From assembly GCF_020005365.1 (NCBI RefSeq), contig NZ_JACNML010000005.1, positions 186,001-250,000 of the forward strand: a stretch of DNA of 64,000 bases, in the 5' to 3' direction. The position numbers and the translations under genes are program-made. The stretch is from Kangiella shandongensis (GTDB lineage: Bacteria > Pseudomonadota > Gammaproteobacteria > Enterobacterales > Kangiellaceae). The notes under the pieces were generated by a model that did not search any database, was not told where the DNA came from, and saw only the letters and a program-made list of their open reading frames with translations. Of this stretch, positions 27,332 through 63,010 are shown piece after piece; position 1 is the first letter of the stretch; every line of letters begins with the position of its first letter.

Positions 27332-27538
27332 GCCCCATTATGTTGAGCTGTGGATAAAGCAAGTTATAGCAATCAAAATCGTGGATGATTTTGATAGTGA
27401 CATTCAGGCCATGGAGGGACTGTATTTCACGGTGCGTTAAATAACTTGCTTTATTCGAAGGGAATCATTCGTAGAATGATCTCAATATAGGGGTGGACTT
27501 CTTTTGGTTACTTTTCTTGTCCATCCAAGAAAAGTAAC
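27332..27538 (-). repeat. Structured extragenic repeat, copy 3 (inverted)
   Basis: Reverse-strand copy. A 13-bp hairpin GTTACTTTTCTTG (27507-27519 with 27526-27538) is at its right end on the + strand. On the minus strand it is followed by CCAAAAGAAG, CCCCTATATTGAG, AAAGCAAGTTAT ... ATAACTTGCTTT, hairpin TCAAAATC/GATTTTGA, and the closing CTCAACATAATGGGG. The rest of 27305-27604 shows no gene. Confidence 0.7.
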
Positions 27539-42164: not shown

Positions 42165-42329
42165 ATGACAATGAAACGCTTACGACTGCTGGGATTAGCA
42201 GGCTTGGCCGTGTTGTTTCTAGGGGCTTGCGGACAAAAAGGGCCATTGCGCATGCCGGACGATGAACCACAAAAACAAACATTAGTGCGTTCTCCAGCGG
42301 ACACGACGCTGAAAGAGGCTGGGTCATGA
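42165..42329 (+). CDS. lptM: LPS translocon maturation lipoprotein LptM (YifL)
   Basis: A 54-aa lipoprotein: a hydrophobic signal peptide ending in the lipobox LGAC with lipidated Cys22, followed at once by the LptM signature GQKGPL. LptM helps LptD-LptE assembly in the outer membrane. The start at 42165 (or ATG 42171) is taken because the signal peptide begins there; the frame is open further upstream but without homology. It overlaps dapF by 4 bp. Confidence 0.88.
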   Translation: MTMKRLRLLGLAGLAVLFLGACGQKGPLRMPDDEPQKQTLVRSPADTTLKEAGS

Positions 42330-51432: not shown

Positions 51433-53607
51433 ATGGATGCCACAAGCATAATCGAATCATTAAACGATGCACAAAAAGAAGCCGTCACGGCGCCGAACAA
51501 GGCGTTACTGGTATTAGCCGGCGCGGGCTCGGGTAAGACTCGGGTGCTGGTGCACCGTATTGCCTGGCTGGTCAAGGTGGAGCAAGTGTCAGCACACTCC
51601 ATTTTAGCGGTAACCTTTACCAATAAAGCGGCGAAGGAAATGCTGGGGCGAGTCGAGGATATGCTGGCGATGCCGGCGCGGGGCATGTGGGTCGGCACCT
51701 TCCACAGCATTGCGCACCGCTTGCTGCGCGCGCACTATAAAGATGCGGGTTTACCGGAAGGTTTCCAGATTCTGGATTCGCAGGATCAGCTACGTGTGGT
51801 CAAGCGGGTGATGAAAGAGCTTAACCTGGATGATAACGAGTGGCCGCCAAAGCAGGCGCAATGGTTTATTAACGCCAAGAAAGACGATGGTTTGCGCCCG
51901 GGGGATATTCACCATCACGGTGACTTCTTTATCAGCACCATGCTCAAGGTGTACTACGCCTACGAAGAAGCCTGTAAAACGGCTGGCCTGGTCGATTTCA
52001 ACGAATTACTGCTACGCGCCTATGAGCTGTGGGCTAAGAATCCACGAATATTGCAGCACTATCAGGAGCGTTTCCAGCATATTCTGGTGGACGAGTTTCA
52101 GGATACCAATGCTATTCAGTACGCCTGGATTCGATTGCTGTGTAATGACAACAACCGCATTACCATCGTAGGCGATGACGATCAGTCGATTTACGGCTGG
52201 CGTGGTGCCAAGATCGAAAATATCCAGCAGTTTGAGAATGATTTCCCTGATTGCAAAATCTCGCGCCTTGAACAGAATTACCGCTCGACGGCGACTATCC
52301 TTAAAGCAGCCAATGCGGTGATTGCCTATAACAGTGAGCGTATGGGCAAGAGTCTGTGGACGGATGGTAATGAAGGCGAACCGATCATTACTTACGCTGC
52401 CTTTAATGAGCAGGAAGAGGCGCGTTTTATTGCGGCGCGGATCGAAGACTGGGTGCAGCAGGGCAATGAGCACAGTGACATAGCCGTGCTTTATCGCAGC
52501 AATGCGCAGTCACGGATCCTGGAAGATGCCATGCTGAATCGAAATATCCCTTATCGGATTTATGGTGGGCTAAGATTCTTCGAGCGCGCGGAAATTAAAG
52601 ATACTCTGGCTTACTTACGCTTGATGACCAACCGTGATGACGATGCTTCCTTTGAGCGAGTAGTGAATACACCGGCGCGTGGACTCGGAGAAAAGTCGGT
52701 CGATCTGGTCAGGGCGCAGGCGCGTAACGATGAAACTTCATTATGGCAGGCGGCTAATAAGATGGTGGTAGAGCAACTGCTGCCACCAAGGGCGCGGACG
52801 GCGATGGCAACCTTCTTGCACCTGATCAATGAACTCGATTCCAGCACTACGGAACTGGATCTGTGGGAGCAGACAGAGGTGGTGATCGAGCATTCTGGTT
52901 TGATGGATAAAGTCAGCAAAGAAAAAGGCGAAAAAGCGCAGGCGCGAAAGGAAAACTTACAGGAATTGGTCAATGCGACCCGTGAGTTTGATCCGGACGA
53001 AGTCATTCCGGAAGAAACACCGGACATGACACCGCTGACAGCATTTATTGCCCATGCTTCGTTGGAAGCGGGCGATACGCAGGCTGAAGAATATCAGGAT
53101 GCGGTGCAGATGATGACCTTGCACTCGGCGAAGGGACTGGAATTCCCGTTGGTGTTTATCGCCGGGATGGAAGAAAAATTGTTCCCGCATCAGATGTCGC
53201 TCGATGAGCCGGGGGGGCTGGAAGAAGAAAGGCGCCTGGCCTATGTGGGGATTACCCGTGCCATGCAGCAGTTGTATCTGACCTATGCCGAAAAACGTCG
53301 CATGTGGGGGCGCGAAACTTATCCGACCGTATCGCGTTTTATCAATGAAATTCCAGCCGAGCTGTTGACCGAAGTACGTCTGAACACCCAGGTGCAGCGC
53401 CCGGTCTTTAAAAAAGAATCGCCGCTCCGAGCCAAAGGCCCGGAAGGGTTTCATCTCGGACAGCTGGTCAGTCACCCCAAGTTTGGTAAGGGCATTATTA
53501 TTAATTATGAAGGCGACGGCCCACAGGCTTCGGTGCAGGTTAATTTTGAAAAAGAAGGCCTGAAAAAACTAATGTTAGCATATGCTAAATTAGAACCTGC
53601 TACATAA
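51433..53607 (+). CDS. uvrD: DNA helicase II UvrD
   Basis: A 724-aa superfamily 1 helicase for nucleotide-excision and mismatch repair. Walker A AGAGSGKTRVLVHRI, motif Ia AVTFTNKAAKEM, motif II VDEFQDTN, motif III GDDDQSIYGWRGA, motif IV NYRS, motif V MTLHSAKGLEFPLVFI and motif VI YVGITRAMQQL are all present, plus the C-terminal Tudor-like end (VSHPKFGKGIIINYEG). No LexA box is visible in the short upstream region. Confidence 0.97.
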   Translation: MDATSIIESLNDAQKEAVTAPNKALLVLAGAGSGKTRVLVHRIAWLVKVEQVSAHSILAVTFTNKAAKEMLGRVEDMLAMPARGMWVGTFHSIAHRLLRAHYKDAGLPEGFQILDSQDQLRVVKRVMKELNLDDNEWPPKQAQWFINAKKDDGLRPGDIHHHGDFFISTMLKVYYAYEEACKTAGLVDFNELLLRAYELWAKNPRILQHYQERFQHILVDEFQDTNAIQYAWIRLLCNDNNRITIVGDDDQSIYGWRGAKIENIQQFENDFPDCKISRLEQNYRSTATILKAANAVIAYNSERMGKSLWTDGNEGEPIITYAAFNEQEEARFIAARIEDWVQQGNEHSDIAVLYRSNAQSRILEDAMLNRNIPYRIYGGLRFFERAEIKDTLAYLRLMTNRDDDASFERVVNTPARGLGEKSVDLVRAQARNDETSLWQAANKMVVEQLLPPRARTAMATFLHLINELDSSTTELDLWEQTEVVIEHSGLMDKVSKEKGEKAQARKENLQELVNATREFDPDEVIPEETPDMTPLTAFIAHASLEAGDTQAEEYQDAVQMMTLHSAKGLEFPLVFIAGMEEKLFPHQMSLDEPGGLEEERRLAYVGITRAMQQLYLTYAEKRRMWGRETYPTVSRFINEIPAELLTEVRLNTQVQRPVFKKESPLRAKGPEGFHLGQLVSHPKFGKGIIINYEGDGPQASVQVNFEKEGLKKLMLAYAKLEPAT

Positions 53608-53679: not shown

Positions 53680-53733
53680 TTTGTAAAATAACAAAATTAA
53701 TCCTTGATCCACTAATCTATTAACTGGTTTAAT
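53680..53733 (+). promoter_or_regulatory. Promoter of subtilase 1 with upstream element
   Basis: TTGATC (53704-53709), 18-bp spacer, TTTAAT (53728-53733). A conserved TTTGTAAAATAA begins at 53680, 24 bases before the -35, at the same spacing as for subtilase 2. Part of a promoter type shared by three genes of the array. Confidence 0.6.
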
Positions 53734-53742
53734 CAGTGCCTG

Positions 53743-53796
53743 CCCTAATTTCTGAAGATGGATCTTTAGTTTTGTCTTCAGGCATTGGGGTTTTTT
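53743..53796 (+). promoter_or_regulatory. 5' leader hairpin with T6 run, subtilase 1
   Basis: CCCTAA (53743-53748) pairs with TTGGGG (53785-53790) and TGAAGA (53753-53758) with TCTTCA (53775-53780), followed by TTTTTT (53791-53796). It starts about 3 bases after the predicted transcription start and ends 31 bases before the ATG. It looks like an intrinsic terminator placed inside the leader, or a 5' stabilising stem. Confidence 0.55.
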
Positions 53797-53827
53797 GTTA
53801 GCTAAATTAAACCTAGGGGGTAGGTTA

Positions 53828-56113
53828 ATGTCATTTAAATTGAAGATGGCTTGTACCGCTACATTATTAGCCATGGGCGTTTCAGCTCATGCAGCGGGCG
53901 AGCTTGGAAAAACAACAATCACGGCTCCAGCAGCTGAAGACGGTAAACAGCGCGTTATCGTTAAATTCAAACCGGGTCACGGTAAATCAGCTAAATCCAT
54001 GGCGATGAAAGCTGGTGCTTCATTAAAAGTAGACCTGAAGCAACATAACGCTTTCGCGATCGAAGTATCACCAAAAGCGCTACAGGGTTTGCGCAACAAC
54101 CCTAACGTTCTATATGTCGAGCCAGACGTAAAACGTAAACTTCTTTCGACTAACTTAAATACTACTGAAGTTGAGCCTTGGGGTATTTCGAGTGTTGAAG
54201 CGGATATCGTTTCAGATAGTAACGCGGGTAACCGTACGGTTTGTATTATTGACTCGGGTTATGATCTTAATCACTCAGACCTATCAACCAATAGTGTTGA
54301 TGGTACCAATGACTCAGGTACGGGTAACTGGTATGAAGCGGGCGGTTCGCACGGTAGTCACGTAGCCGGTACGATTGCTGCCGTAACTAATGGTTCAGGT
54401 GTCGTTGGTGTTAACCCTAACGGTAATATCAACCTGCACATCATTAAAGTATTCAATGAGTCCGGTTGGGGTTACTCTTCAGACTTAGTCAACGCAGTTG
54501 ATGATTGTGTGGCAAACGGTGCTAACGTTGTGAGCATGAGTTTGGGTGGCGGAGCCTCGTCAACTACTGAAGCAAATGCATTTACTAACCACTATAACAA
54601 TGGTGTGTTGAGCATTGCAGCAGCTGGTAACGATGGTGATTCGACTCACTCTTATCCTGCATCTTATGACAACGTTGTCTCTGTAGCAGCTACAGATGAA
54701 AATAACCAGCACGGTTATTTTTCACAGTACACGGATCAGGTTGAATTATCTGGTCCAGGTGTAGCCATTTTATCATCAGTAGATGGTGACGGTTCGCTTG
54801 GTCAATTAGATGTTGGTGGCGTGGATTATTTTGCAGACGGCGTTGTTGTACCAAACTTCTATAACAGTAGCCTTAGTCCTGATCCTGCAGGTATTGCTGG
54901 CTCAGCGTCAGGTACGATAGAAGCATGTTCTTCTACAAGCTGCCCTGACATGACGGGTAATATTTGTGTGATTGAACGTCGCGATCTTGAAGATGGCTCG
55001 GGTAGCTCAACAGAAGCGAAATATCCTGAGTTCAACTCTGTAGAAGCGTGTGCTGATGCAGGTGCTGAGGGTGTTGTCGTTTATAGTCGCTCAGAGCGTC
55101 CATCGCTAGAAGTTCCATTCTTGATCGACTTCAATAGCAAAATTGAAGGTATGCCAGTGGTCACGGTTAATCGTGCTACAGGTCTAGATTTGGTCAGTAA
55201 GGCTGGTCAAAATGCAACGCTTTCTGTTGCAACCGGTCAAGACTGGGCTTATTACAATGGTACTTCGATGGCAACGCCTCACGTTAGTGGTGTAGCGGCG
55301 CTTGTATGGAGCCATCATCCATCATGTACTGCGGCTGAGATTCGCCAGGTACTGAAAGATACAGCGCTAGACATAGACGTTGCGGGTCGTGATAACCGTA
55401 CGGGTTATGGTCTGGTAAAAGCACAAGCGGCAGTTGACTATTTAGACGCTAACGGCTGTGCGGGTGGCACAGAACCACCATCAAGTGGTAATGAGCTGAG
55501 CAAAGGCGTTGCGGAAACTAACCTAAGCGGTGCTCAAGGTTCAGAAGTTTTCTATACCTTTGAAGTACCAGCGGGTGCAACAGATCTAAACTTCGATATG
55601 TCTGGCGGTTCTGGTGATGCTGACCTTTACGTTAAGTTCGGTTCACAGCCAACTACTTCTGACTATGACTGTCGTCCTTGGAAAAGTGGTAACACAGAAA
55701 ACTGTAACTTTGCTTCGCCACAGGAAGGCACTTATCACGTGATGATCCGTGGCTACTCAAGCTACTCAGGCGTAAGCTTGGTTGCTGACTATACAGACGG
55801 TGGTTCAGATCCTGTGAACGATACGTTGAGCGAATCTAACTTGTCGGGTGCTAAGAGTAGCGAGCAGTTCTTTACGCTAGACGTGCCCGCAGGCCGTTCA
55901 ACAGTTGATATTGTCATGTCAGGTGGTTCTGGTGATGCTGACCTTTACGTTAAGTTCGGTTCACAGCCAACGACATCAAGCTATGATTGCCGTCCTTATA
56001 AGTATGGCAATGAAGAAACTTGTACCTTGAACGCACAGGAAGGCACGTATCATATCATGATTCGTGGTTACTCGAGCTACTCAGGTGTCAGTCTTCAAGG
56101 CAGCTCTAACTAA
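53828..56113 (+). CDS. Secreted S8 subtilase 1 with PA insert and two PPC domains
   Basis: A 761-aa exported serine protease. Signal peptide to about residue 24 (MACTATLLAMGVSAHAA), I9-type propeptide about 30-105 (RVIVKFKPGHGKSAK), catalytic Asp142 (IIDSGYD), His175 (GGSHGSHVAGT; Ser replaces the usual Thr of HGTH), oxyanion Asn in AAAGNDG, a PA-like insert (about 385-455), Ser480 (GTSMATPH), and two C-terminal PPC domains (about 555-645 and 665-758). ATG 53828 is chosen for its GGGGG ribosome binding site and the signal peptide. A tandem paralogue follows. Confidence 0.92.
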   Translation: MSFKLKMACTATLLAMGVSAHAAGELGKTTITAPAAEDGKQRVIVKFKPGHGKSAKSMAMKAGASLKVDLKQHNAFAIEVSPKALQGLRNNPNVLYVEPDVKRKLLSTNLNTTEVEPWGISSVEADIVSDSNAGNRTVCIIDSGYDLNHSDLSTNSVDGTNDSGTGNWYEAGGSHGSHVAGTIAAVTNGSGVVGVNPNGNINLHIIKVFNESGWGYSSDLVNAVDDCVANGANVVSMSLGGGASSTTEANAFTNHYNNGVLSIAAAGNDGDSTHSYPASYDNVVSVAATDENNQHGYFSQYTDQVELSGPGVAILSSVDGDGSLGQLDVGGVDYFADGVVVPNFYNSSLSPDPAGIAGSASGTIEACSSTSCPDMTGNICVIERRDLEDGSGSSTEAKYPEFNSVEACADAGAEGVVVYSRSERPSLEVPFLIDFNSKIEGMPVVTVNRATGLDLVSKAGQNATLSVATGQDWAYYNGTSMATPHVSGVAALVWSHHPSCTAAEIRQVLKDTALDIDVAGRDNRTGYGLVKAQAAVDYLDANGCAGGTEPPSSGNELSKGVAETNLSGAQGSEVFYTFEVPAGATDLNFDMSGGSGDADLYVKFGSQPTTSDYDCRPWKSGNTENCNFASPQEGTYHVMIRGYSSYSGVSLVADYTDGGSDPVNDTLSESNLSGAKSSEQFFTLDVPAGRSTVDIVMSGGSGDADLYVKFGSQPTTSSYDCRPYKYGNEETCTLNAQEGTYHIMIRGYSSYSGVSLQGSSN
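55607..55653 (+). repeat. 47-bp direct repeat, first copy (PPC domain 1)
   Basis: 47 bases identical to 55925-55971, 318 bp (106 codons) apart and in frame. It encodes GSGDADLYVKFGSQPT, the core of both PPC domains. Full nucleotide identity points to recent duplication or gene conversion. Confidence 0.9.
55925..55971 (+). repeat. 47-bp direct repeat, second copy (PPC domain 2)
   Basis: Second identical copy of the 47-base unit in subtilase 1; see 55607. Confidence 0.9.
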
Positions 56114-56134
56114 TTATTCTGTTAGATTGCTGAT

Positions 56135-56166
56135 AAAAAAGGTCGCTTTTAGCGGCCTTTTTTTAT
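56135..56166 (+). terminator. Intrinsic terminator after subtilase 1
   Basis: Stem GGTCGC / GCGGCC (one G-T pair) with loop TTTTA, A-run before and T7 after. Confidence 0.9.
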
Positions 56167-56222
56167 ATCAGTTCATTTTGTTGAATCTAAAATAAATCTA
56201 TTCTGTAACGGTTAGTAGCAAC

Positions 56223-56276
56223 TTTGTAAAATAATTAAGTTTATGCTTGATGCGTATACGCATTAGCTGCTTTAAT
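56223..56276 (+). promoter_or_regulatory. Promoter of subtilase 2 with upstream element
   Basis: TTGATG (56247-56252), 18-bp spacer with the palindrome CGTATACG, TTTAAT (56271-56276). TTTGTAAAATAA at 56223-56234 again starts 24 bases before the -35. Confidence 0.6.
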
Positions 56277-56285
56277 CTTCTCTCG

Positions 56286-56338
56286 CGGCTTTCACATAGG
56301 TCTTGGGACTATAAGGATAATAGAAGGTGTGAGAGTCG
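56286..56338 (+). promoter_or_regulatory. 5' leader hairpin, subtilase 2
   Basis: CGGCTTTCACA (56286-56296) pairs with TGTGAGAGTCG (56328-56338), 11 bp with two G-T pairs, beginning a few bases after the predicted start site. No T-run follows, unlike the leaders of subtilases 1 and 3. Confidence 0.5.
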
Positions 56339-56383
56339 TTAGCATATTCAAATGAAGACTCTGAAAAGAGAGGGGTAGGTATA

Positions 56384-58507
56384 ATGTCTTTTAAATTAAA
56401 GATGGCTTGCGCAGCCACTCTAGTCGCGTTGGGCGTTTCGGCTCAAGCTGCTGAGAAAGAGCGAGTAATCGTTAAATTCACACCAGGCAATGGCCAGGCG
56501 GTTAAAGCCATGGCAAAGAAAGCTGGTGGTGAGCTCAAAGTTGACCTGGCAAAGCACGATGCGTTTGCGATGGAAGTTCCAGCTCAAGCATTGAAAGGTC
56601 TGCGTAATAATCCTAACGTTGTATACGTCGAAAGCGACGTACAGCGTGAGCTACTATCAACAGATTTAAATACCACTGAGGTTGAGCCTTGGGGTATTTC
56701 TCGCGTTGAGGCCGATGTGGCTTCAGATGCGAATGCAGGTAACCGTACGGTGTGTATCATCGACTCAGGTTACGATATTCGTCATTCAGACCTGGACACC
56801 AATAACGTCTCTGGTACCAACGATTCGGGTACCGGTAACTGGTATGAGCCAGGCGGTTCGCACGGTACGCACGTAGCAGGTACGGTTGCGGGTGTTGCAA
56901 ATGGTTCTGGCGTGGTTGGTGTGATGCCGAACGGTAACGTTAATTTGCACATCATCAAAGTGTTCAATGAATCAGGCTGGGGTTACTCATCTGATCTGGT
57001 TGCAGCGGCTGACGAATGTGTTAACGCTGGTGCTAACGTGATCAGTATGAGCCTTGGTGGTTCACGCAGTAGCCGCACAGAAGACAATGCGTTCAGCAAC
57101 CATTACAGCAACGGTGTATTGAGTATCGCTGCAGCGGGTAACGATGGTAATACGGCTCATTCATATCCTGCATCGTATGACGCGGTCGTATCGATCGCTG
57201 CGGTTGACTCAGGCAACATGCATGCCAATTTCTCACAGCAAACCAATCAGGTTGAGCTGTCGGGACCGGGTGAAGCGATCCTATCAAGCGTTGGACTTGG
57301 TGATGGCTACCTTGGTCAGTTGACAGTCGGTGGTACAGACTACTTTGCTAATGGCGTGGTACCTCATACCTTCTATAACAGCAGCTTGAGCTATGACAAT
57401 GCGGGTAACGCAGGATCGGCTTCTGGCGAGCTTGGGGTTTGTACGACTTCGGGTACTTCTTATAGCTGTCCTGATATGACGGGTAAAATCTGTCTCGTTG
57501 AGCGTGGTGAGAACCAAGGTGATGATACAAGCAGTACAGAAAATAATTATCCAGAATATCGTGGTGCAGATGCCTGTGCTGACGCTGGCGCTGCGGGTAT
57601 CGTCGTATACAGTAACGCGGACCGTCCAGGTCTACAAGCACCATTTATGGTTGACTTCAATGGCAAGATCCAGGGTACTCCAACCGTATCGGTCGATCGT
57701 GCAACGGGTCTTGAGTTAGCTGGCTTGGCTGGTCAAACAGCAAGCATGTCTAAAGATGGTGGTCAGGACTGGGAATACTATAACGGTACCTCAATGGCGA
57801 CGCCTCACGTTAGTGGTGTAGCAGCACTAGTATGGAGTCACCACTCAGGTTGTAGCGCATCTGAAGTACGTTCAGCGCTACAAGCAACGGCTGAAGATCT
57901 TGATGCAGCGGGTCGTGACAATAAAACCGGTTATGGTCTAGTTAAAGCTCAAGCAGCAGTCGACTATCTGGCGACACAAAGCTGTGGCGGTGGTTCTACG
58001 ACTAATCAACCTCCTGTCGCTGACTATAGTTATAGCTGTACTGACCTAGGCTGTAGCTTCGACGGTTCAAGCAGTTCTGACAGTGACGGCAGCATTGCGT
58101 CTTATAGCTGGGACTTTGGTGATGGTAATACGGCAACGGGCTCTAACCCATCGCACACCTTTGCAGCGGCAGGTACCTATACTGTGAGCTTGACTGTAAC
58201 GGACGATGCTGGCGCAACAGATACAACGACTCAAGATGTGACCGTGTCTGATGGCTCTACGGGTGCTGATCTGAGCCTGAGCGCGAATGGTTACAAGGTG
58301 AAAGGTCGTCACCATGTGGACCTAAGCTGGAGCGGCGCGACTTCGACTAACGTTGACGTCTATCGTAACGGTAGCTTGATCGCAACAACAGCGAATGACG
58401 GTGCTTATACCGACGCGATGAATAGTCGTGGTGGTGCAGCTTACACATACAAGGTATGTGAAGCGGGTACGTCAACTTGCTCTGCAGAAGTGAATGTCGT
58501 CTTCTAA
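56384..58507 (+). CDS. Secreted S8 subtilase 2 with PA insert and PKD domain
   Basis: A 707-aa exported protease closely similar to subtilase 1 over the first about 530 residues (same signal peptide start MSFKLKMACAATL). Catalytic Asp127, His160 (HGTH) and Ser470 (GTSMATPH) are visible; a PA-like insert lies between His and Ser. The C-terminus differs: a PKD domain (about 545-625, PPVADYSYSC...YSWDFGDGNTAT) and a terminal beta-sandwich (about 630-707) resembling FN3. GAGGGG is the ribosome binding site. Tandem duplication followed by C-terminal domain exchange is the simplest history. Confidence 0.93.
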   Translation: MSFKLKMACAATLVALGVSAQAAEKERVIVKFTPGNGQAVKAMAKKAGGELKVDLAKHDAFAMEVPAQALKGLRNNPNVVYVESDVQRELLSTDLNTTEVEPWGISRVEADVASDANAGNRTVCIIDSGYDIRHSDLDTNNVSGTNDSGTGNWYEPGGSHGTHVAGTVAGVANGSGVVGVMPNGNVNLHIIKVFNESGWGYSSDLVAAADECVNAGANVISMSLGGSRSSRTEDNAFSNHYSNGVLSIAAAGNDGNTAHSYPASYDAVVSIAAVDSGNMHANFSQQTNQVELSGPGEAILSSVGLGDGYLGQLTVGGTDYFANGVVPHTFYNSSLSYDNAGNAGSASGELGVCTTSGTSYSCPDMTGKICLVERGENQGDDTSSTENNYPEYRGADACADAGAAGIVVYSNADRPGLQAPFMVDFNGKIQGTPTVSVDRATGLELAGLAGQTASMSKDGGQDWEYYNGTSMATPHVSGVAALVWSHHSGCSASEVRSALQATAEDLDAAGRDNKTGYGLVKAQAAVDYLATQSCGGGSTTNQPPVADYSYSCTDLGCSFDGSSSSDSDGSIASYSWDFGDGNTATGSNPSHTFAAAGTYTVSLTVTDDAGATDTTTQDVTVSDGSTGADLSLSANGYKVKGRHHVDLSWSGATSTNVDVYRNGSLIATTANDGAYTDAMNSRGGAAYTYKVCEAGTSTCSAEVNVVF

Positions 58508-58530
58508 TGATATTCTGCTTTGAAAGAACG

Positions 58531-58561
58531 AAAGCGAGCCCTTTGTGGCTCGCTTTTTTTT
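58531..58561 (+). terminator. Intrinsic terminator after subtilase 2
   Basis: Perfect stem AAAGCGAGCC / GGCTCGCTTT, loop CTTTGT, followed by a T-run. Confidence 0.95.
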
Positions 58562-58937
58562 GTGATGGAAGTCTGTGATGGCGTGATTTCGGGGGGAGCA
58601 GGCATGCTGCTAATCAAAGCTGGACGATTTTATCGGTTTTGAAGACATGACCAATGTAGTAGAAGCAATTAAGCAGTCATAAAACAATATGCCCCGGGAG
58701 ATTATCCTGGCTAAATACCAGCCAGTCATTAAAGCTGACTGAAGGGCGACCCATCCAAAGGAGTGTATTAGCAAATCTTAGTATACGAACCTGTTTGATC
58801 GATGGTCGTTGTCACACGGAAGATTATGAATACAGTAGTGAAAGGAATAGTGTATGGCTTATGGCGATGATGACGAATTGACGAATCAATAGAATGTAAA
58901 ATTTGTGACAAACAAGTCGGATTAGTAAATTTGCCAG
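58562..58937. other. Gene-free stretch before subtilase 3
   Basis: About 375 bases without a plausible gene. I see no signal peptide, no known domain and only short broken frames. A perfect 11-base palindrome TTTGTGACAAA lies at 58902-58912, 25 bases before the -35 of the next promoter, and could be a regulator half-site. Confidence 0.5.
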
Positions 58938-58967
58938 TTGACATATCTTTACATAAATTGGTTTAAT
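58938..58967 (+). promoter_or_regulatory. Promoter of subtilase 3
   Basis: Consensus TTGACA (58938-58943), 18-bp spacer, TTTAAT (58962-58967). An inverted repeat GCATCT (58968-58973) / AGATGC (58981-58986) straddles the predicted start site and could be an operator. Confidence 0.65.
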
Positions 58968-58975
58968 GCATCTCA

Positions 58976-59032
58976 GCCTCAGATGCTATGGATAGTTCTT
59001 GAGAAATTACCATAAGCAGATGGGGCTTTTTT
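58976..59032 (+). promoter_or_regulatory. 5' leader terminator-like hairpin, subtilase 3
   Basis: GCCTCA/TGGGGC, tandem G-A, TGC/GCA, TATGG/CCATA and TTC/GAA form one long stem (58976-59026) followed by TTTTTT (59027-59032). It begins at the predicted 5' end of the mRNA and ends 38 bases before the ATG. Read as an attenuator or a 5' stabilising element. Confidence 0.65.
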
Positions 59033-59070
59033 ATTGCTTATAAAAAAGTAAATACCAAATGAGGGGTAAT

Positions 59071-60663
59071 ATGAAATTTAAAATGAAAATGGCATGTGCT
59101 GCTACTGTACTAGCTTTAGGCGCAGCTGCCCACGCTGAGCGTGTAATCGTATCGTATGACAATAACGGCCAAGGCCTGAAGAAAGGGCATGACGTATTAG
59201 TTGAAGGTAATGGCTGGTTTGCAGCAGATTTAAATGAGAAGGGGAAAAGTGCCGTTCGTGGTATGAAAGGCTTCAAGAAGATGGAAAAAGACGTGAAGCG
59301 TTTCCCAATGGCAATTTGGAATGATGATCAGGGTGATCCAACTGCTGAGCAGTTAACACCTTACGCAGTATACCAGTCACAAGCGGATCAACTAGTGCTT
59401 GGTTCTGGTCAAAAAGTTTGTGTTATCGATTCTGGTATCGCTGGTGCTGACGGTGAAACTGGTGGCAAGAACAATGATTTCGATTGGACTGTAATCACCG
59501 GTGATAACGATTCGGGTACAGGCGACTGGTTCCGAGACGGCGGTCCACACGGTACTCACGTGGCGGGAACCGTAGGTGCGGCAGATAATGGTATTGGTGT
59601 TGTAGGTATGGCACCGGGCGTTCCGATGCATATCATCAAAGTATTCAATGCGTCTGGCTGGGGTTACTCTTCAGACTTGGCATACGCGGCTGATAAATGT
59701 ACTCAAGCTGGTGCAAACATTATCACCATGAGTCTCGGTGGTGGTCGTGCTAACAGTATAGAAGAGAGTGCATTCGACACTTTCACTGCAAACGGTGGTT
59801 TAGTGTTGGCTGCAGCTGGTAACGACGGTAATAACGTACGTTCATACCCTGCGGGTTATAAGTCAGTAATGATGGTTGGCGCTAACGACGCTGATAACAA
59901 CATCGCTGATTTCTCACAATACCCAGGCTGTAAAGATAAAGGCCAAACAGATGACGGTCTTTGCGTTGAAGTAACAGCAGGTGGTGTTGATACGCTATCA
60001 ACTTATCCAGCGGGCGGCGCAACGCTTTCATCGGCGACAATTGACGGTGCTGGTATTGCTTCATCAGGTATGGAAAACAACGGTGACGCCAGTGGCGACA
60101 CTTACTACATGGGGCTGGGTGATGCCACAGACGCTGGCGCTAATGGTAAAATCTGTGTGATTGACCGTGGTAGCATCAGTTTCCATGATAAAACTGCTAA
60201 CTGTGAGAACTCTGGTGGTATTGGCGCAATCATTATTAACAATGAATCAGGTATGTTGTACGGCACGCTAGGCGATACCAATACAACTACGATTCCTGTG
60301 GTGGGAACTGCACTTGAAGATCGTGACGCTATCTTAGCAGCGACAACGGCCTCTGTGTCTGTTGGTCCTAGCGATTATGGCTACATGAGCGGTACTTCAA
60401 TGGCAACACCTGCGGTAGCTGGTATCTCTGCTCTTGTTTGGTCAAATCACCCAAGTTGTTCTGGTACTGAAATCCGTAACGCTTTAAAAGCGACGGCTGA
60501 AGACCAAGGTGCTGTGGGTCGTGATGACTACTTCGGTTACGGTATCGTAAAAGCAAAAGCTGCGAGCGACTACCTGACGGCTAACGGTTGTACTGGCTCT
60601 GTCGATGATGGCAGCGGTGACGACGGTGGTTCCTGTAAAGGTGGCCCTAAAAAATGTGGCTAA
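59071..60663 (+). CDS. Secreted S8 subtilase 3 with C-terminal CKGGPKKCG motif
   Basis: A 530-aa exported protease. Signal peptide MKFKMKMACAATVLALGAAAHA is nearly that of subtilases 1 and 2. Catalytic Asp120 (VIDSGIAG), His160 (GGPHGTHVAGT) and Ser443 (GTSMATPAV) are present; a PA-like domain is around residues 340-420. No PPC or PKD domain follows. After a short Asp/Gly linker the protein ends with CKGGPKKCG and stop, a motif repeated in the protein at 62216. ATG 59071 follows GAGGGG; the ATG at 59059 precedes that site and is rejected. Confidence 0.92.
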   Translation: MKFKMKMACAATVLALGAAAHAERVIVSYDNNGQGLKKGHDVLVEGNGWFAADLNEKGKSAVRGMKGFKKMEKDVKRFPMAIWNDDQGDPTAEQLTPYAVYQSQADQLVLGSGQKVCVIDSGIAGADGETGGKNNDFDWTVITGDNDSGTGDWFRDGGPHGTHVAGTVGAADNGIGVVGMAPGVPMHIIKVFNASGWGYSSDLAYAADKCTQAGANIITMSLGGGRANSIEESAFDTFTANGGLVLAAAGNDGNNVRSYPAGYKSVMMVGANDADNNIADFSQYPGCKDKGQTDDGLCVEVTAGGVDTLSTYPAGGATLSSATIDGAGIASSGMENNGDASGDTYYMGLGDATDAGANGKICVIDRGSISFHDKTANCENSGGIGAIIINNESGMLYGTLGDTNTTTIPVVGTALEDRDAILAATTASVSVGPSDYGYMSGTSMATPAVAGISALVWSNHPSCSGTEIRNALKATAEDQGAVGRDDYFGYGIVKAKAASDYLTANGCTGSVDDGSGDDGGSCKGGPKKCG

Positions 60664-60710: not shown

Positions 60711-60846
60711 ATTGTCCAGAGGTTTAATTTCTATGCGTTTTTGCATTAGATTATCTAATTGGTAAGACCAATTCACAAATAGTGCTGAATGGCTTGTTTG
60801 ATCTATTATTTGTTGTTATAAAAGGCTTGCTTTCGGATTATATAAT

Positions 60847-60877
60847 TTGATTTGAAAGTTCAGTCTATGATTTTAAT
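60847..60877 (+). promoter_or_regulatory. Candidate promoter of subtilase 4
   Basis: TTGATT (60847-60852), 19-bp spacer, TTTAAT (60872-60877), giving a short leader of about 20 bases. Resembles the shared promoter but with different spacing and no leader hairpin. Confidence 0.35.
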
Positions 60878-60904
60878 AAACAAATACTAGAGGGGTAATC
60901 TCTA

Positions 60905-62035
60905 ATGAAAAGAACTTTAATCGCCAGTGCCGTAGGAATGGCTTTTGTCTCTGCACAATCGATGGCTGTGGAACCAACCTATTCATCCAATGACGAACTC
61001 AACGTACAGAATCGTTGTATTGTGACTTTACAAGATCACTTAAATGCTTCTGAGGTGAAAGGGTTAGCTAAAGGTATGGCTAAGCGTGCAGAATCTTCGG
61101 TACGTCACGTTTATACAAACTCGATTAAAGGATTTACGGTAAACGCACCTTGCCACGCTGCAGCAAAAGCATTTGGCGGCGACATGAACATTAAACGCAT
61201 GTCTCCAGACGGTGTTGTAAGCGTCAGCTTTAAAGGTAAGCCAGGCGGCGGTGGTAACACTGGGCAAACAACACCATGGAGCGTAACACGTGTTGGTGGT
61301 GCTCAGGACGGTAGCGGTTATACTGCTTGGGTACTGGATACTGGTATTGATACCGATCACGGTGATTTGAATGTTGATGCGAGCCGTGGCTTCACTGCAT
61401 TTACTAAAGGTAAAGATGCAGATACCGATGATGGTAATGGCCACGGTACTCACGTAGCGGGTACGATTGCGGCGCTCGACAACTCACAGGACGTTGTGGG
61501 TATCGCTGCAGGCGCAACGGTTGTTCCAGTAAAAGTTCTAGATTCGCGTGGTTCTGGTTCATATTCTGGTGTTATCGCGGGTGTGGATCACGTTGCGGCT
61601 AACGCCTCGGCCGGCGACTGTGCCAACATGAGTCTGGGTGGCCCAGTGAGCCAGGAGCTTGATGATGCGGTTGAAGCGGCAGCGCAAAGCTCTGGTGCTT
61701 ACTTTGTACTAGCGGCAGGTAATGATGGTGATGACGCGAACAACTACTCGCCTGCACGCGCAAATGGCAATAACGTGTATACCATTTCTGCGACTGACTC
61801 AAGCGACAACATGCCATACTGGTCTAACTACGGTAACCCACCAGTAGATTACGCTGCACCAGGTGTTAGCATCCTGTCTCTGAAGAAAGGTGGTGGCACG
61901 ACTACCATGTCAGGAACCTCAATGGCATCACCAGCAGCCTGTGCTGTGATTATGTTGAAAAACGGTAATCCAGGCACAGACGGTACGGCTGGAAACGACC
62001 CAGATGGAAACCCGGATCCAATCGTACACCTATAA
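60905..62035 (+). CDS. Secreted S8 subtilase 4 (compact, proteinase K-like)
   Basis: A 376-aa exported protease with signal peptide (MKRTLIASAVGMAFVSAQSMA), a propeptide-like segment (about 35-115) and a compact catalytic domain: Asp145 (VLDTGIDTDH), His180 (GNGHGTHVAGT), oxyanion Asn in LAAGNDG and Ser339 (GTSMASPA). It lacks the PA insert of its neighbours and is from a different S8 subgroup. It ends soon after the catalytic Ser with a Gly/Asp-rich tail, so it is short for the family but appears whole. AGAGGGG is the ribosome binding site. Confidence 0.92.
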   Translation: MKRTLIASAVGMAFVSAQSMAVEPTYSSNDELNVQNRCIVTLQDHLNASEVKGLAKGMAKRAESSVRHVYTNSIKGFTVNAPCHAAAKAFGGDMNIKRMSPDGVVSVSFKGKPGGGGNTGQTTPWSVTRVGGAQDGSGYTAWVLDTGIDTDHGDLNVDASRGFTAFTKGKDADTDDGNGHGTHVAGTIAALDNSQDVVGIAAGATVVPVKVLDSRGSGSYSGVIAGVDHVAANASAGDCANMSLGGPVSQELDDAVEAAAQSSGAYFVLAAGNDGDDANNYSPARANGNNVYTISATDSSDNMPYWSNYGNPPVDYAAPGVSILSLKKGGGTTTMSGTSMASPAACAVIMLKNGNPGTDGTAGNDPDGNPDPIVHL

Positions 62036-62215: not shown

Positions 62216-63010
62216 ATGAAGAAAATACTTCTAACTGCTATGGGAGCGGCATTGTTATCAGTTACTACGCCTGCTTCAGCCGATCACCAATGGGCTGACT
62301 ATCATTGGGCTACATTAGGTAATGGACTGAATTTACCAGTCATTGATAGTGTCACTCCAGATTGGCAGGATTCTTATACCGAGTCATTATCTCAGTGGGA
62401 GCAAGGCACTCCAATTGTTCATACTGAAATCAGCGCAGACGATAGTAAGAAAGCTCGAAAAAGATGTAAAGCGTCAAGCGGAAAGATGAGAGTTTGTAAT
62501 GATAGCTACGGCTACAATGGCTGGGCTGGCTTGGCATCGATTAACCTCGATTCGAATGGTCATATTGTCCAGGGTACTGCTAAGATGAACGATAGTTATC
62601 TGGCGACTTCATCGACGGCTTATCGTAACCACGTGATGTGTCAGGAAATCGGTCATGTCTATGGCTTAGGACATACCTCGGAAGATGGTTCCAGTCAGCA
62701 AACCTGTATGGACTATTCTAATGATGTAAACAGTCAATGGCCAAATTCGCATGACAGACAGTTACTGTCAGACATCTACAGCCATAACGATGGTTATGAA
62801 ACAGCAGATGCCAGTGGCAGTGATAAACCTTGTCGTGGCGGCCCTAAAAAATGTGGTAGCAATTCAAATGGTGGTTTAGGCATTAAAGTCTGGCAAAAAG
62901 GGCGTGTTCAAATCCGAGTATCGCAGGGTACAGATGGCACTTTATGGGTACATCATATTACCTTAGCCGAAGGCTACGATGATATTGTTGACGATCACGA
63001 TGAACATTAA
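62216..63010 (+). CDS. Secreted metzincin-like protein with QExxHxxGxxH site and CRGGPKKCG motif
   Basis: A 264-aa exported protein, signal peptide to about residue 22 (SVTTPASA). The active-site segment is CQEIGHVYGLGH: Gln143 replaces the first His of the metzincin HExxHxxGxxH, while Glu144, His147 and His153 remain, and a Met-turn (CMDYS, Met165) follows. Related proteins with QExGH are known to me in other bacteria. The C-terminal part carries CRGGPKKCG (62831-62857) and a basic beta-like tail. Whether it still cleaves peptides is open. Upstream site AGGGGGAAATC. Confidence 0.75.
   Translation: MKKILLTAMGAALLSVTTPASADHQWADYHWATLGNGLNLPVIDSVTPDWQDSYTESLSQWEQGTPIVHTEISADDSKKARKRCKASSGKMRVCNDSYGYNGWAGLASINLDSNGHIVQGTAKMNDSYLATSSTAYRNHVMCQEIGHVYGLGHTSEDGSSQQTCMDYSNDVNSQWPNSHDRQLLSDIYSHNDGYETADASGSDKPCRGGPKKCGSNSNGGLGIKVWQKGRVQIRVSQGTDGTLWVHHITLAEGYDDIVDDHDEH

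Follow-up and report, generated by a model that had tools for sequence, protein, structure and literature searches.

Terminator-like hairpins close to the predicted 5′ ends of tandem subtilase mRNAs in Kangiella

The 64,000-nt stretch of DNA analysed here (the window) is Kangiella DNA in which a tandem of subtilase genes begins at position 53828, right after a helicase gene (51433–53607; forward strand, like all features of the tandem given below). This neighbour was taken from the ORF list, has a match in 18 of 20 stretches from the genus, and encodes what we take, from its protein sequence, to be a UvrD/Rep-type helicase. The locus raises the question of why the mRNAs of three subtilase genes should begin with a long stem-loop, and why two of these stem-loops should run into a stretch of T residues ahead of the start codon. 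A sequence-only reading had placed the stem-loops just past the predicted transcription starts and had proposed either attenuation or an ompA-like stabiliser. S8A peptidases in tandem are known for Kangiella, to which a proteolytic lifestyle has been ascribed (PMC6000758); the passages on these peptidases make no mention of leaders, and the main text of that paper never uses the word ‘promoter’. In a literature search by title and beginning of the abstract, with subscription papers mostly outside it, no paper on a Kangiella subtilase leader was among the matches listed. Protease transcription and metal ions were reportedly the subject of Xu et al. in 2018.

All three leaders carry a predicted promoter with a TG ahead of a TTTAAT −10 and a TTGA-type −35 at 18 nt: TTGATC, 18 nt and TG-G-TTTAAT for subtilase 1 (53704–53733, score 10.5), TTGATG, 18 nt and TG-C-TTTAAT for subtilase 2 (56247–56276, score 10.5), and TTGACA, 18 nt and TG-G-TTTAAT for subtilase 3 (58938–58967, score 12.5). 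The stem follows the −10 after 7–8 nt, so that the first paired base lies 1–2 nt past the predicted start if 6 nt are assumed between −10 and start. These promoter calls rest on the scores and on a fixed distance to the hairpin that is kept in relatives. A generic promoter scan gave no excess of sites (17 found against 16.2 expected) and left the three leader promoters unlisted because it requires an A at the second position of the −10. The hairpins are located at 53742–53791, 56285–56339 and 58975–59027; the first and the third run into six T residues (53791–53796 and 59027–59032), as had been noted before, and the second has no T run. By eye, runs of at least five T are present solely on the subtilase side of the hairpin, and only 31 nt (leader 1) and 38 nt (leader 3) separate the T run from the ATG. 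The ribosome binding sites, inferred by position, are AGGGGGTAGG (53815–53824), GAGGGGTAGG (56370–56379) and GAGGGGTAA (59061–59069), and the genes extend over 53828–56113 (with ATG 53828 as start instead of the TTG of the ORF list), 56384–58507 and 59071–60663, the last ORF having been compared with its relatives.

Fold and shuffle tests agree with the stem-loops proposed for the three leaders. Leader 1 (53735–53800) folds at −24.4 kcal/mol (z −4.56, none of 200 shuffles as good; z −5.03 over the first 60 nt of the predicted transcript), leader 3 (58970–59035) at −22.7 kcal/mol (z −3.21, one of 200 shuffles as good), and leader 2 (56276–56340) at −19.5 kcal/mol (z −2.02, 9 of 200). For leader 2 the z improves to −3.85, and none of 200 shuffles matches it, if the test is run on the first 60 nt of the predicted transcript. 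The leader of the fourth gene (60840–60907) folds no better than chance (z −0.29). At the gathering score of Rfam, the only match in the window is TwoAYGGAY at 27341–27468, and none falls on the leader hairpins.

Leaders were collected from 20 stretches of 19 genomes of the genus, including the genome of the window (G016 is represented twice and G007 was left out). Sixty subtilase ORFs were recognized by motif, of which 55 had their leaders read; the five others, of the MKKSLVASAVGL type, lay outside the start pattern and were scanned later, with a terminator-like hairpin in none of the five leaders. This gave 25 leader hairpins of class 1 or class 3, from 16 of the 20 stretches (16 genomes), 24 of them collected by pattern and one by a second pattern after reading. 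A run of at least five T lies directly 3′ of the stem in 23 of the 25, including hairpins 1 and 3 of the window, a count partly owed to selection, since the collecting patterns themselves cover the hairpin's 3′ end; by class, at least six T are present in nine of nine class 1 hairpins and at least five in 14 of 16 class 3 hairpins. A stem-loop with a GC-rich base and an adjoining U run is likewise found in 23 of 25, window hairpins 1 and 3 among them, and hairpin 2 of the window fails in this respect. The terminator score, computed with a formula after d'Aubenton-Carafa, is above 0 in 23 and drops to −29.2 for the first gene of G010 and to −55.0 for G013, the two hairpins without a T run.

In 19 of the 25 leaders a good −10 (TTTAAT or TATAAC) sits 5–8 nt 5′ of the stem, which places a predicted terminator between the gene's own predicted promoter and its start codon. 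In G016, G014, G008, G015 and G013 the hairpin does not adjoin a good −10, the best promoter being further upstream. Among hairpin leaders with a promoter score of at least 10, the first 60 nt fold at z ≤ −2 in 20 of 21 (median −4.66), and among other subtilase leaders with such a score in 5 of 13 (median −1.56), subtilase 2 of the window being one of the five; in G013 the fold of these 60 nt is not beyond chance (z 0.88). With a scan independent of the collecting patterns, 22 of the 25 leaders and one of 30 others proved to have a T-run hairpin no more than 130 nt from the start; the class 3 hairpin of G006 and the two hairpins without a T run were missed. The sole match of this kind among the 30, in G018, is long but its T tail is poor, and 17 more matches among them all lie at least 140 nt from the start. 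The helicase–subtilase junction is present in G011 and G018, where a class 1 or class 3 hairpin is absent from the leader of the first gene; given these two cases and the two hairpins without a T run, the leader hairpin is not indispensable. Other repeats were seen in some leaders: by eye, a GTGA-N6-TCAC-like repeat, which we take to be CRP-like, stands directly 5′ of the hairpin in five of them (L040, L041, L042, L044 and L047), and two MNKK-type subtilases (L037 and L048) have a different long leader inverted repeat, GTCACA...AAGTGGC, with a poor T tail at most. Reading by eye also showed GGTNNNACC palindromes, which resemble FadR/PdhR-type operators, near several cluster promoters, in the window at about 60757–60774 and in leaders of relatives.

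How unusual the arrangement is can be judged from 400 kb of the same genome, with 319 script-called ORFs, of which 155 have an upstream gap of at least 100. In 19 of these 155 regions a terminator-like hairpin stands no more than 130 nt from the start. Thirteen of the 19 lie no more than 60 nt past the previous stop and are gene-end terminators of the ordinary sort; at 3–12 nt 5′ of these stems, no promoter scores above 8.5, the best value found. In the window, three of 29 upstream regions have such a hairpin, at 42326 (score 8), subtilase 1 (10.5) and subtilase 3 (12.5). Elsewhere in the genome, strong terminator-like hairpins stand far past the previous stop at two other genes (L180, 6036–6884, and L181, 17478–17990, both on the reverse strand), possibly as attenuators or unannotated RNAs.

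Pairing in orthologous leaders, on which the sequence-only reading had let its proposal stand or fall, proved to be conserved. Class 1 (nine rows, eight distinct) has eight pairs with 96.9% of cells paired and a covariation score of 0.487 against 0.013–0.103 in slid controls; both-sided changes affect nine cells where shuffles give 4.3, and none of 500 shuffles got as far. These changes fall on three of the eight pairs, and this number of pairs alone is not above that of the shuffles (191 of 500 reached it). For class 3, a plain MAFFT alignment gave ten pairs, three of them changed on both sides. Fitting the alignment to model R1, with 15 of 16 rows, biases it toward the structure; on this alignment pairing holds in 242 of 259 cells, and 8 of 18 pairs show changes in both arms. 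There are fewer events than cells because several changes mark clade splits, and much of the covariation stems from few such splits.

A long inverted repeat adjoining a promoter could also be a DNA site for the binding of a regulator, with the RNA fold merely incidental. The stems, however, keep U·G pairs (13 of 15 at one pair), which fit selection at the RNA level better than a DNA palindrome; the T run stands on one side only, and the arm sequences of class 1 are unlike those of class 3, so that the chance of this reading is next to negligible. Nor does it seem that the hairpins are simply terminators of the upstream gene that by chance lie between promoter and start codon, although the first genes of the clusters would allow it. 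Sixteen of the 25 hairpins stand in the leader of the first gene after the helicase, and the terminator scan found no other terminator between the helicase stop and the hairpin in any of the 16; in the window, hairpin 1 is the only terminator found past the helicase gene, a point absent from the earlier note. The other nine, all of class 3, lie inside a cluster with a subtilase as the previous gene, and in eight of the nine this gene has its own T-run terminator 22–28 nt past its stop, the ninth (G006) having an inverted repeat without a T run. Termination of the upstream gene thus does not explain the in-cluster hairpins, it would leave the spacing of 5–8 nt between −10 and stem in 19 of 25 without a reason, and the 31 or 38 nt from T run to ATG in leaders 1 and 3 are too short for another promoter; we regard it as distinctly improbable. 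In the window, the terminator of subtilase 2 found by the scan (58530–58557) is distinct from hairpin 3, and a terminator-like repeat 3′ of subtilase 1 (56135–56164), absent from the scan, was recognized by reading the sequence.

A switch could also be at work in which the ribosome binding site is masked by pairing with the 5′ arm, as the minimum-energy folds of the full leaders 1 and 2 have 5′-end letters paired with the AGGGG site. Against this, pairing of the 5′ end with the Shine–Dalgarno site reaches p ≤ 0.05 in just 2 of the 25 leaders (leader 2 of the window standing outside the set), and the base of the hairpin is retained in all 25 full-leader folds, which makes a switch of this kind highly improbable. 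A further alternative is a 5′-terminal stabiliser of the ompA or aprE type, which would give a long-lived exoprotease mRNA and in which the T run would do little. The stem is flush with the predicted 5′ end even in some leaders without a T run (the 5 of 13 with z ≤ −2), and in aprE, likewise a secreted subtilisin, removal of the 5′ stem-loop lowered mRNA stability from more than 25 to about 5 min (PMC11805744). The five or more T kept in 23 of 25 hairpins would serve no protection, however, and would cost expression, and the leaders outside the hairpin set are weak as a group (median z −1.56); an element that does nothing but stabilise is in our opinion unlikely.

The leader element is thus a real and conserved one at the level of RNA, and most likely a promoter-proximal terminator that doubles as a 5′ shield. 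From their sequence, hairpins 1 and 3 are probably intrinsic terminators at the extreme 5′ end of the subtilase mRNAs that would also shield the read-through mRNA. Since the T run would be superfluous in a pure stabiliser, termination is better supported than stabilisation, and both may occur at once. Of the two functions proposed earlier, attenuation thus stands as regards the form of a terminator, the stem flush with the 5′ end also fits the ompA-like stabiliser, and attenuation of the textbook type has no room upstream. On this reading, the polymerase would start at the conserved promoter and transcribe the stem-loop and the six U, many rounds would stop approximately 55–60 nt past the start, and the remainder would read on to the AGGGGTA ribosome site and the gene. 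With the first stem pair no more than a few nucleotides from the 5′ end, that end of the read-through mRNA would be paired and decay from there would be hindered; where the subtilase is the first of its cluster, the hairpin would also end transcription of the helicase gene. Termination, a share of read-through and 5′ protection are what we infer from this arrangement. Because the stem begins near +1, there is no space for an upstream antiterminator or a leader peptide, and regulation would have to target the hairpin itself or the polymerase in trans; read-through might be a fixed share of transcripts or be set by a trans factor. No conserved leader peptide was seen by eye in the hairpins, the short ATG frames present in some not being conserved. 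Pairing of the U run with a downstream A run was tried as an antiterminator and rejected, with a mean z of −0.51 in class 1 (n = 9) and −0.94 in class 3 (n = 16) and z ≤ −2 in just 4 of 25.

The terminated product would be a U-tailed hairpin RNA about 55 nt long, which by analogy with E. coli 5′UTR-derived fragments that serve as sponges (PMC7815308) possibly acts in trans. If termination is true, exoprotease output in Kangiella would be limited just past initiation and for several paralogues together, by an element simple enough for a test with one reporter. The leaders would also offer a clean case of a terminator without an upstream antiterminator, any control of which would lie outside the usual logic of RNA switches.

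Could a protein read the first-made arm? CsrA/RsmA, acting on a conserved AYGGA in the nascent 5′ arm, might set terminator formation, or might shield the 5′ end as in flhDC, a proposal that we consider quite unlikely. Letter shuffling would give 4.8 hairpins with ANGGA, whereas 22 of the 25 have it; in the background it occurs in 19 of 244 pieces. AYGGA is present in 20 of 25 hairpins against 8 of 244 such pieces. These 22 hairpins are not 22 independent cases, as groups of them may share ancestry, and three of the 25 have no ANGGA. A mini-hairpin with GGA in its loop scores at least 7 in 9 of 25, whereas 300 shuffles gave a mean of 1.9 such cases and at most 7, and the background 4 in 244 pieces; leader 1 could adopt the alternative fold CUGAAG[AUGGAU]CUUUAG; this excess is mostly borne by the motif itself, because shuffles of the flanks with the motif fixed were beaten at p < 0.05 in 3 of 22 cases only. 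In the predicted fold, moreover, 18 of 22 have both G of the motif paired. The genome has two CsrA-family loci, and E. coli CsrA shields the 5′ end of flhDC and acts on termination in pgaA, but the word antitermination has no use in the text of the review at hand (PMC7652899). CsrA or another reader of AYGGA on the first-made arm would amount to protein-controlled antitermination without an upstream antiterminator RNA, one 55-nt stretch being at once message start, stop signal, sensor and 5′ shield of the protease set, with the terminated hairpins as small U-tailed RNAs; to this extension we give little credence. A separate observation is the TwoAYGGAY RNA (RF01731) at 27341–27468 on the forward strand of the window, proposed to bind CsrA (PMC4333381), which has 15 matches in the same genome, is present in 17 of 20 genomes of the genus and in none of 14 control genomes, and by its copy number looks like a repeat family.

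The leader element joins known kinds, the leader terminator and the 5′ stem-loop, and is unusual in that it unites the two, flush with the start, and recurs in several paralogues. The 5′ stem-loop of E. coli ompA is not known to be a terminator. The Kangiella leaders are like ompA in a 5′-terminal pairing of the sort that slows 5′-end-dependent decay (see references in PMC3997798), and like B. subtilis aprE in having a 5′-end hairpin on the mRNA of a secreted subtilisin; unlike the predicted Kangiella terminator, the aprE stem-loop is a stability element, and the passages that describe it do not speak of termination (PMC11805744). In E. coli ampC the attenuator doubles as the terminator of frd (PMC6045580), and the first-gene hairpin of Kangiella stands likewise after the helicase gene. 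The Kangiella stem, unlike that of ampC, begins near +1, and copies of it lie within the tandem cluster, downstream of genes that have no need of them. No conserved start–stop codon was seen in the Kangiella hairpin, in contrast to the ampC leader. Intrinsic terminators in 5′UTRs, formed by a stem-loop and a U run, have been described in E. coli by Term-seq, e.g. for ispU (PMC7815308); these are different genes in a species other than Kangiella. CsrA-bound leaders such as flhDC share a GGA near the 5′ end, which in Kangiella, in contrast, is mostly paired, and the passages on these leaders name no intrinsic terminator within them (PMC7652899).

On this evidence the leader hairpin is a feature of the genus Kangiella. 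When 150 candidates per genome were scored with model R1, the stronger matches in the genus were subtilase leaders, on one strand or the other; at least five weak matches lay elsewhere in the genus (E 0.016–0.084, one in G000), and 20 genomes of other genera of the family gave three weak matches (E 0.001–0.0055). Among the best 80 of 193 subtilase loci in named records, with starts guessed by script, the scan found a terminator-like hairpin at 17. Two of these (L052 and L073) are the leader hairpin, which was also recognized by eye at L051 of K. taiwanensis, where the scan gave an upstream one; the leader hairpin was thus seen at 3 of the best 80 loci, all labelled Kangiella or Kangiellaceae. 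Of the remaining 14 scan matches, 13 lie at least 152 nt from the ATG. At L055, from a MAG outside Kangiella, a hairpin stands 87 nt from the ATG and about 12 nt past a TTTAAT; its T tail is weak, and the case could be either independent or ancestral. Counting it as ambiguous, no clear leader hairpin was found at the 77 other loci among the best 80 of 193.

Two sequence motifs of the cluster may be added. The ribosome-site motif AGGGGTAR is common to the cluster subtilases (53815–53824, 56370–56379, 59061–59069 and about 60890) and many relatives. As a genome-wide signal it was rejected: it has 12 exact matches ahead of an ATG and the reversed pattern has 11, and at two mismatches it has 96, fewer than the 144 of the control; three of the 12 exact matches are the cluster subtilase sites, and among the other nine L162 precedes a prepilin-like protein, no leader hairpin being visible there by eye. 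GGPKKCG, near the C-terminal end, is common to subtilase 3 (60640–60660) and a small exported protein encoded at 62216–63010 (about 62836–62860).
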